Under the pieces are notes generated by a model. It was not told the DNA's origin. It saw only the letters and a list, made by a program, of their open reading frames with translations, and ran no database searches. A stretch of DNA of 47,520 bases from contig JAFVZS010000042.1 in NCBI GenBank assembly GCA_017508015.1, positions 1 through 47,520 on the forward strand, written 5' to 3'. Source of the DNA: Lentisphaeria bacterium (GTDB lineage: Bacteria; Verrucomicrobiota; Lentisphaeria; Victivallales; Victivallaceae). Shown in pieces: positions 3,936 through 6,549 of the stretch (position 1 is its first letter; every line of letters begins with the position of its first letter). The position numbers and the translations under genes were made by a program.

Positions 3936-5015
3936 ATGGCTGTTGAACTTAAAAAAGATGCCGCTTACTCTCTTCTCGTACCGACCAGTATGGGGGTCCG
4001 ACTGACTCCGGTCAATGGTCAGCCCTTTCACTGCAGCGATACATTTCAAATGCAGGTGACCAGTGCTGAAACCAACGTCGCCAGTATCGCTTCATATCTT
4101 GGTCTTAAAGTAAAAGTTTTGACCGCCTTTGTCAAAGACAGTCCCGTTGCCCGGATGATCAAGGACAACCTCGCCAGCCGCCATATGGATTATGAAGGCC
4201 CGGAAATCGAACAGGGAGGCCCCTGGGGATACCGTCACCAATTCAACCTCGCTGACAGCGGTTACGGCAGTCGCGGGCCGCGGGTCCAAAATGACCGCGC
4301 CGGTGAAGTCGGCCGTCTGCTCAATGTTAAATATTTTGATCTTGACCGGATTTTCGGTAAAGAAGGTGTCCAGATCGTTCATCTTTCCGGTTTGATCGCT
4401 TCCATGAGCCCGGATACCAGCAGATTCTGTCTGGAACTGGCCCGTGCCGCAAAAAAATACGGAACCAAAATCAGTTTCGACCTCAACTACCGCGCCTCAT
4501 TCTGGAAAGGCCGTGAAGAAGAACTCAGTGCGATTTTCGCTGAAATCGCTTCCCTTTCCGATATTCTTATCGGCAATGAAGAGGACTTTCAGCTCTGTTT
4601 GAAAATCCAGGGCCCCGAAGCCGGCGGCAAAGGTATTTCCGCCAAAATCGACAGCTTCAAAGAAATGGTCGAGCGCGTCAAAGCCGCTTATCCCAATGCC
4701 GTTGCCTTTGCCACCACTTTGCGCCAGGTTATCAATACCAACGCTCATTTGTGGGGCGCAATTACCAATGTTGACGGCGTCTGGCAGGTCGTGGAACCCC
4801 GCGAAATCCACGTGCTCGACCGCCTCGGCGGCGGTGACGGATTCGTCGGCGGTTTCCTCTACAGTATCCTTCGCGGCTGGGAACCGGAAAAATGGACCCA
4901 GTTCGGTTGGGCCACTGGTGCTTTGGCTACCACTCATCTCACCGACTACGCTCAGCCTGCTGACGAAGAACAAGTCTGGAGTATCTGGAACGGCAACGCC
5001 CGTGTCAAACGCTGA
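3936..5015 (+). CDS. PfkB-family sugar kinase, 2-keto-3-deoxygluconate kinase type
   Basis: 359 residues. PfkB/ribokinase-family enzymes transfer phosphate from ATP to a sugar or sugar acid; the length and overall pattern best fit KdgK-like kinases of the Entner-Doudoroff or uronate route. The anion-hole/catalytic motif DRLGGGDGFVGG is present with the catalytic base at D301, and FDLNYR near the middle is the family substrate/ATP region. The ATG at 3936 was chosen because it follows AAAGGAAA at proper spacing; in-frame sequence upstream overlaps the promoter. Third codon positions are unusually rich in C, which fits high expression. The stop is followed at once by the repeat hairpin at 5016. 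The substrate assignment is inference. Confidence 0.82.
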   Translation: MAVELKKDAAYSLLVPTSMGVRLTPVNGQPFHCSDTFQMQVTSAETNVASIASYLGLKVKVLTAFVKDSPVARMIKDNLASRHMDYEGPEIEQGGPWGYRHQFNLADSGYGSRGPRVQNDRAGEVGRLLNVKYFDLDRIFGKEGVQIVHLSGLIASMSPDTSRFCLELARAAKKYGTKISFDLNYRASFWKGREEELSAIFAEIASLSDILIGNEEDFQLCLKIQGPEAGGKGISAKIDSFKEMVERVKAAYPNAVAFATTLRQVINTNAHLWGAITNVDGVWQVVEPREIHVLDRLGGGDGFVGGFLYSILRGWEPEKWTQFGWATGALATTHLTDYAQPADEEQVWSIWNGNARVKR

Positions 5016-5200
5016 GTTACTTTTCTTTTCACGGGAAAAGAAAAGTAACCAAAAGAAAAGCGGGAAGTCGCGCCGCTTCGTTGTCGCGGCTTGATCGACG
5101 CTTTTTTCAAAAAAGCTTGGCAAAAACTCAGTGGAGTAACACCCGCTGGGTTTTTCTTTTTCACGGGAAAAGAAAAGTAACCAAAAGAAAAGCGGGAAGT
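5016..5200. repeat. Post-stop hairpin and duplicated repeat modules
   Basis: A perfect 14-bp hairpin (5016-5029 with 5036-5049, 6-nt loop) starts one base after the sugar kinase stop. A 39-bp stretch is present twice without mismatch, at 5030-5068 and 5162-5200; the second copy keeps only a 9-bp version of the hairpin (5152-5160 with 5168-5176). After each copy comes a different short GC hairpin followed by CTTGAT. Module 5090-5129, with the internal palindrome GCTTTTTTCAAAAAAGC, matches the reverse complement of 96-132. Same family as the block at 1-374. Confidence 0.85.
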
Positions 5201-5416
5201 TGCACTGTTGCTTCGCAACGGCTTGATTGGTCGGGTGGCTTGCACCGCCATTGACAGAGGCTCTGCCCCTATTGCCCCGGTGAATTTTTACAGCGGAAAC
5301 AGGCCGCAGATTGGGGCGGCAGAGTGGCAAAAAAATGGGAGATTTTGGGAAGTTATGAGAGGTTGTGAGAGTCACAAACACCCACGGCCTTATCTCTCAA
5401 AAATTCCCACAATTTC

Positions 5417-5520: not shown

Positions 5521-5646
5521 TGATAAAAAACGATTTTTTTAAATAAAATAAAGAAAATGCATATTTTATTTTACAAAAAGCTTGAAAATTACTTATCATC
5601 ACGCTATATTGAACAGTGTAGCGCAAGCCGAGGAGTAATTGTGAAG

Positions 5647-5689
5647 AGGCCCGCCCGCACCATTCCCCCCCTTGGGTGCGGGCGGGCCT
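5647..5689. repeat. 15-bp perfect GC-rich inverted repeat
   Basis: AGGCCCGCCCGCACC (5647-5661) pairs perfectly with 5675-5689 across a 13-nt C-rich loop. No U-run follows on either strand, so it does not look like an intrinsic terminator. It lies just before the recF-like fragment. Confidence 0.8.
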
Positions 5690-5717
5690 TCGGCTGCGGA
5701 GGAGACGGCATTGGGGC

Positions 5718-5876
5718 AAAATCAGTTGCGATGATGCCGGAGATGTTTTTGATGGCATAAAAGGGCCGATAAAGAATAAAGCGGTTTTGCAGCTTGAAAA
5801 AATACCCAATCGGGTGTATGTTACAGCAACAGAATATCGTAACTGGCAACAGGAGGTTCACGGCATAAAGCAATAA
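5718..5876 (+). pseudogene. Possible 3' remnant of a recF-like ATPase gene
   Basis: The frame ending at the TAA at 5874-5876 reads DDAGDVFDGIKG then, about 20 residues later, RVYVTATE, followed by a short tail. The DD-x5-D pattern and the VTATE ending resemble the Walker B/D-loop region and C-terminal end of RecF (LDD..SELD ... QVFITTTD). Nothing upstream in any frame supplies the N-terminal ATPase half, and a GC hairpin sits immediately before it. I read it as a decayed fragment. The match is by eye and short; chance similarity is possible. Confidence 0.35.
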
Positions 5877-5933
5877 CGTTTTTTTTGAAAATCACATCGC
5901 CATCATAATTGATGGTATGACATATACACACCA

Positions 5934-6062
5934 CTGAGAGAAACCGCCAAATATTTTTAATAGCAGTGTGTAGTAAGTCGGTCTGAGCTTACGGTCCGGC
6001 TTATTGTACTGCTATGGGCCTTGGCGGGCCTCTCTCAGGCAATGAGTCGGGGCCGTCTTTTT
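5934..6062 (+). ncRNA. Rod-like structured leader, candidate attenuator of the SLOG gene
   Basis: The sequence folds on paper into a long rod. CTGAGAGA (5934-5941) pairs with 6031-6038; CCGCCAA (5944-5950) pairs with 6021-6027; ATAGCAG (5960-5966) pairs with 6009-6015; this continues through G-U pairs to GTCGG (5977-5981) with 5996-6000, leaving a 14-nt loop. A 9x5 asymmetric internal bubble separates lower and upper stems. The 3' side of the lower stem can instead form a terminator-like hairpin (6027-6054). Such mutually exclusive folds are typical of attenuators and riboswitches. Alternatives are a stand-alone small RNA or an inverted-repeat element. Confidence 0.5.
6027..6062 (+). terminator. 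Terminator-like hairpin with U-run ahead of the SLOG gene
   Basis: GGCCTC (6027-6032) pairs with 6049-6054 including one G-U pair; CTC (6034-6036) pairs with GAG (6044-6046) around a 7-nt loop. GTC and TTTTT (6058-6062) follow. It shares bases 6027-6038 with the lower stem of the rod fold, so only one of the two can form. Confidence 0.45.
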
Positions 6063-6099
6063 GTATCCCCGTCTTGTGACAGCAACGGGGAGTTTTTCT

Positions 6100-6549
6100 G
6101 TGAAACTTGGCATTACCGGCAGCAGGAGCAATGATTTTTTTGATTTTTCGGCACTTTTCAGCCGCCGCATCAGGGAATTTAATGCTTTTCTCGGCAGAAA
6201 GCGTATTACTTTGATCATTACCGGCGGAGCCAGAGGAATTGACCGGCAGGCCGAAATTTGTGCTGAAAAAATGAATATCCCCTGCCGGATCATCCGTCCG
6301 GATTATGCCCGTTACCGCCGCGGGGCTCCGCTGAAAAGAAATTTGACGATCATTGATCAATGCGACGCTTTGCTGGCAGTATGGAATGGTGATTTTCGCA
6401 GTCGCGGTACGATTTATACGGTAACCAACGCCTTGAAGTCCGGCAAAAGGGTGTTTGTCATATCATCCTGTTCAATGGATACAATTGAGTGTATCGGTGA
6501 AGTAAATTCTCCGGAAGTTCTGCTCAAAGCTTCAGCCCCAAAAAGGTAA
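6100..6549 (+). CDS. SLOG-superfamily protein, DUF2493 / YspA-like
   Basis: 149 residues. The start LGITGSRS, the central IITGGARGIDRQAE and the C-terminal motif AVWNGDFRSRGTIYT match the SLOG fold of DUF2493 and DprA/YpsA relatives, a Rossmann-like domain that binds nucleotides or nucleotide-derived ligands. GTG at 6100 is chosen as start because GGGGAG sits 7 nt upstream; an in-frame TTG at 6061 would fall inside the terminator U-run. The gene stands alone, preceded by the structured leader at 5934-6062 and followed by the divergence-free LacI promoter region. DUF2493 proteins are often found on mobile DNA; the ligand here is unknown. Confidence 0.75.
   Translation: MKLGITGSRSNDFFDFSALFSRRIREFNAFLGRKRITLIITGGARGIDRQAEICAEKMNIPCRIIRPDYARYRRGAPLKRNLTIIDQCDALLAVWNGDFRSRGTIYTVTNALKSGKRVFVISSCSMDTIECIGEVNSPEVLLKASAPKR

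Follow-up and report, generated by a model that had tools for sequence, protein, structure and literature searches.

A covarying leader with two exclusive folds ahead of a SLOG gene and many other genes in Lentisphaeria, a probable family of transcription attenuators

What a long, self-complementary leader does ahead of a short coding region is the question raised by one locus of a Lentisphaeria genome. The window, i.e., the whole stretch of 47,520 nucleotides that was analysed, carries at 6100–6549 a gene for a DprA/YspA-like SLOG protein; this gene and the parts of its leader described below lie on the forward strand. The SLOG assignment draws on homologues and on Pfam matches to DNA_processg_A (E value 3e-5) and YAcAr (E value 6e-5), both weak and below the cut-offs. 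The homologues start with MKLG at the position of the GTG codon at 6100, and a GGGGAG sequence at 6087–6092, 7 nt before this codon, is the likely ribosome-binding site. Leaders of the same shape, though of different letters, precede most SLOG relatives in other Lentisphaeria genomes.

Folding of the leader gives a rod at 5934–6038, much as an earlier note on this DNA had described it, i.e., a fold of about 105 nt with stem blocks and an internal bubble. The rod is made up of P1 (5934–5941/6031–6038), P2 (5944–5950/6021–6027), and P3 with the apical stem (5960–5985/5992–6015), and includes the internal bubble. In a 129-nt stretch its energy is -55.1 kcal/mol compared with -37.1 ± 3.6 for dinucleotide shuffles (z = -5.0), none of 200 shuffles being as stable. 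The same note had proposed covariation across homologues as a check, and the rod passes it: among 105 aligned matches, pairs are kept in 93.3% of the cells, double changes occupy 1491 cells against 418 in shuffles, and the covariation score is 0.929 compared with 0.228 for shuffled alignments and at most 0.134 for slid versions. Three of the 105 rows are doubtful, two because they match the same palindromes on the opposite strand and one as a weak second match (L191); with these removed, the median pairwise identity among the 102 rod sequences is 45%. Strong conservation in the leader is confined to AAA, the P2 positions, GG, C, and the U-run. The conserved AAA, GG, and C sit in internal loops of the rod, and P2 itself covaries.

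The extent of the family was established with covariance models. Two small alignments of SLOG-gene leaders contained 38 and 41 consensus pairs, ten in each showing double changes. Because MAFFT alignments of all seven leaders put P1 in the wrong place, models were built for each subgroup separately. Those from two leader groups each recover the other group together with many more copies. A third model gave matches in 95 of the 198 genomes of the class and in 121 of 388 across the phylum; E values came from a shortened calibration, and nearly all of the sequences are metagenome-assembled. The family occurs in gut bacteria of Lentisphaeria and related classes, before many different genes. None of 299 genomes in the phylum of Angelakisella was matched. 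This result, the low share of doubtful rows (3/105), and the distant matches listed and inspected, in which the P2 core and the T-arm pairing described below are present, mostly together with a U-run, led us to reject the idea that a lax model had picked up generic palindromes. The window's own genome holds a second, weaker copy (L221, C87). Downstream of it lie a degenerate partial repeat of the start of the element and, at a distance of 339 nt, an acetyltransferase-like gene. No Rfam family reaches the gathering score in the window, comparison of 5780–6110 at E values up to 5 yielded no meaningful match, and at 20 loci only neighbouring tRNA and rRNA genes were matched, the element itself remaining without a match. 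Given this absence of covariance-model matches, a known Rfam class was rejected, in line with the earlier note, whose author had not recognised a known riboswitch. A limited search of the open-access literature returned no description of this leader family. The leader is a previously uncatalogued RNA family with no match in Rfam 15.

A second fold competes with the rod. Region 3 (5991–6007), which forms the 3' side of the apical stem and is common to both structures, pairs with region 4, or T arm (6039–6056), the 3' strand of a terminator-like stem. Between them lies an inner hairpin (6016–6031) whose loop exposes some of the P2 3' strand, and the structure is closed by a U-run at 6058–6062; in 95 of 96 copies this run counts no fewer than four U. 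The position of the U-run, about 38 nt before the GTG, had been given correctly, as had the presence of two exclusive folds ahead of a gene, the rod and the terminator-like fold both being conserved. The strand proposed to be shared, 6027–6038, was misplaced: the conserved stem uses 5991–6007 with 6039–6056 instead, and 6027–6038 falls mostly within its large loop. Among 137 copies, a set that includes related ones, the pairing of each region 3 with its own region 4 amounts to -26.3 ± 3.5 kcal/mol, compared with -15.0 ± 3.9 for shuffled segments, -16.6 with segments of other copies, and -10.1 for a downstream control; it reaches -18 kcal/mol or better in 135 of the 137. With the 3' half folded by itself, all 96 copies pair 10 or more of the 17 bases that precede the U-run. 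Covariation of 3:4 scores 0.237 against 0.139, and at most 0.09 for slid pairings, in an alignment fitted to the rod and not to this pairing. The inner hairpin is paired in 87.8% of the cells and scores 0.364 (0.229 shuffled; at most 0.19 slid). A simple terminator scan, which considers only loops of 3–8 nt, does not report the 3:4 hairpin. With the U-run behind it, this hairpin looks like an intrinsic terminator. A possible third pairing, CGGGG/CCCCG, was seen by eye within 6048–6071 (6048–6052/6067–6071), with the U-run in its loop; similar pairings were seen by eye in several relatives and subgroups.

At the 5' side, arm A (region 1; TACACAC, 5925–5931) is complementary to 5966–5972. The mean energy of pairing between the upstream arm and the 5' side of the apical stem (region 2) is -18.2 over 135 copies, compared with -13.0 for cross pairings and -12.6 for shuffled ones. 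The evidence for 1:2 is much weaker than that for the rod or for 3:4, yet consistent. A hairpin P0 (5895–5919), whose 3' strand abuts arm A or overlaps it, folds in the window at -10.6 against -2.5 for shuffles, and P0-like hairpins with changed pairs occur in many copies, not all. The conserved AAA, GG, and C of the rod loops are the bases that would be paired in the inner hairpins of the alternative structure, the fit to the 5' inner hairpin being taken from reading the sequences. The arm, the rod, and the terminator-like hairpin thus give a layout of three successive pairings, 1:2, 2:3, and 3:4. The mean free energy is -68.2 kcal/mol for the rod and -57.2 kcal/mol for the two hairpins; the rod is favoured in nearly all copies, and 131 of 137 end with the rod present. 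Since the rod is thermodynamically favoured, termination would need a signal.

A sigma-70-like promoter (TTGAAA-N17-TATGTT) is predicted at 5794–5822. It is the sole promoter-like site within 5700–6120, where one is expected by chance, and the same scan found no such site in 6040–6100. In relatives the best promoter-like site is similarly placed, with the -35 hexamer at a median of -124 from the rod, and the mean score is 10.2 compared with 7.1 for shuffled sequences. A purine-rich, Shine-Dalgarno-like AGGAGG lies at 5851–5856; a motif of this kind occurs near -72 in 73 of 133 copies, compared with 14% for shuffles, and no conserved start codon or open reading frame follows it. Leader-peptide attenuation of the trp type was rejected for want of a conserved reading frame after this orphan motif. 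Immediately upstream of the -35 box, a CCATGCARACAGA-like motif was observed in L113, L118, L154, L171, L172, L176, L210, L214, and L215; it stands before different genes and is likely an operator, which suggests a common transcription factor in this subgroup. By eye, a gene resembling Hanks-type Ser/Thr kinases lies upstream of the leader in L089, L109, L111, L112, L113, L118, and L125, and a sigma-factor-like gene in L072 and L090. Further upstream in the window, a GC-rich hairpin at 5643–5700 (gcccgcccgcacc...gggtgcgggcgggc), which precedes the predicted promoter, is apparently not related to the leader family, and ttttcttttcacgggaaaagaaaagtaaccaaaagaaaagcgggaag near-repeats at 5000–5250, which have the look of a dispersed repeat, lie downstream of a gene for a PfkB kinase.

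The leader thus offers two exclusive conserved folds, one of them ending in a U-run, in an element placed between a predicted promoter and a co-oriented gene. We propose, with a probability of roughly two in three, that it belongs to a new family of cis-acting two-state attenuators that switch between the rod and two hairpins. By default the rod would form and RNA polymerase would read through into the gene. A signal, i.e., a protein, a ligand, a ribosomal subunit or another RNA, might favour 1:2 or block zipping of the rod; region 3 would then pair with region 4 and transcription would stop. Where the start codon directly follows the U-run, 3:4 would also mask the sole plausible ribosome site. 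Of the attenuator reading in the earlier note, the exclusive folds ahead of a gene are supported, as is the covariation across homologues for which it asked, whereas its terminator pairing and the sensing of a SLOG ligand are not supported. Such sensing was rejected as the main idea, since the same leader precedes nucleases, membrane proteins, a methylase, and others; given this diversity of targets, the signal is probably not specific to SLOG.

Among the 11 closest SLOG genes, nine have the leader, two of these copies being cut by a contig end; those of G084 (L005/L014) and G371 (L015/L033) are without it. L014 (SLOG 65%) lacks this leader, and in L015 and L033 a different rod-like leader with a U-run was observed before the SLOG homologue. 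Secreted endonucleases are also among the targets, PF01223-type enzymes lying downstream in about eleven copies (two scanned with Pfam, the rest assigned by sequence similarity or by eye), and an SNase-like lipoprotein was found at an E value of 0.009, below the cut-off. Further targets include zinc-ribbon membrane proteins, an HSDR_N/N6_Mtase restriction-type methylase, and Sel1, LRR_5, WYL, and histidine-kinase proteins, and many downstream proteins match no family. A recurring helical-looking protein (DEFI..YL...GI.NP..V...I) was noticed downstream, near the leader, in L117, L118, L209, and L215.

A stand-alone gene for a trans-acting small RNA of about 230 nt, with its own promoter and its end at the U-run, would make the downstream genes mere neighbours or recipients of read-through. 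Closely related copies keep the promoter and the leader and often diverge just after the U-run, the RNA is bracketed by promoter and terminator, and genomes hold several copies, all of which would suit such a gene. However, downstream reading frames are oriented with the leader in a ratio of 62:12 by simple ORF calling, at short distances, and the leader stays with most full-length SLOG loci and with about eleven endonuclease genes across species, one locus (L165) having the order leader-SLOG-leader-endonuclease. Moreover, in four copies (L067, L068, L069, and L165) an ATG directly follows the U-run and there is no other ribosome site, so that the mRNA must carry the element. We consider the small RNA unlikely.

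A metabolite-binding riboswitch built on the same two-state platform would share the terminator/antiterminator layout, and the conserved core around P2 (AAA, GG, CC) could be read in its favour. The conserved unpaired nucleotides are nevertheless few and suit the alternative fold, P2 covaries, the targets are functionally mixed, and no Rfam class is matched; this explanation, too, seems improbable to us.

The element might instead be a mobile or duplicating DNA module, MITE-like or recombination-site-like, that combines promoter and palindrome and whose fold acts in DNA. Two identical 410-bp copies lie 1.1 kb apart in one contig of G009, the near-identical modules L111 and L112 (97.8%) stand before different genes, and many copies are found at contig ends. 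Against this, the strand-specific U-run, the promoter-like site, and the gene orientation point to an RNA function, and old copies retain their pairs at 45% identity. The integron attC cores RYYYAAC and GTTRRRY occur at the ends of 3 and 3 of 135 copies, none with both, compared with 5.4 and 6.7 in shuffles, so an attC identity was discarded; carriage by phages or plasmids was likewise rejected, the plasmids searched giving no match and the three pattern matches in viral contigs failing the model. Mobility and RNA function are not exclusive and can coexist, but as an explanation of the fold the DNA module is very unlikely. Least likely of all is a structural 5' UTR in which the rod shields the mRNA or serves as a substrate of RNase III and the T arm is the by-product of an old duplication: the long near-perfect duplex and the rod as free-energy minimum agree with it, but 135 of 137 copies retain a T arm complementary to the apical stem, nearly always with a U-run at its end, and a by-product would have decayed.

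Within the preferred attenuator reading, the two hairpin loops, which carry the complementary P2 strands, could kiss, as their sequences would allow. We therefore raise, as a tentative extension, a portable promoter-plus-RNA switch, its hairpins kissing through P2 or merging into the rod, that might co-regulate across the lineage a large set of accessory genes (nucleases, SLOG, membrane zinc-ribbon proteins) by one common signal. Under this extension the signal might be, instead of a metabolite, a protein or the small ribosomal subunit, the latter bound at the orphan Shine-Dalgarno-like motif. If the attenuator proposal is right, the leader would be among the commoner structured RNA leaders of Lentisphaeria and related classes, with an unusually clear record of compensatory changes in two exclusive folds, and would define a regulon linking SLOG proteins, secreted nucleases, and membrane proteins; compensatory mutants and the short and long transcripts would provide a handle for finding the signal.

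The only named Lentisphaerae RNA motif met in our limited open-access search is Acido-Lenti-1 (RF01687), like the leader a candidate structured RNA of this group. It is listed as not cis-regulatory (PMC2864571), and, although expected in the scanned Rfam library, it gave no match, not even at E values up to 5 on the leader of the window. With integron attC sites the leaders share long imperfect palindromes and several similar copies per genome; they differ in the absence of core sites and in having a U-run and a promoter-like site. As in terminator-type riboswitches, exclusive antiterminator and terminator folds occupy a 5' leader, here without a recognisable aptamer or Rfam class and before mixed target genes. 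The layout is also close to that of the trp-operon attenuators, where likewise four regions pair in turn, 2:3 excludes 3:4, and the gene is preceded by the 3:4 hairpin and its U-run. Unlike these, the leader has no leader peptide, its 2:3 structure extends over 105 nt as a rod that includes three additional conserved helices, and a single family is found in front of many genes that are not related to one another.
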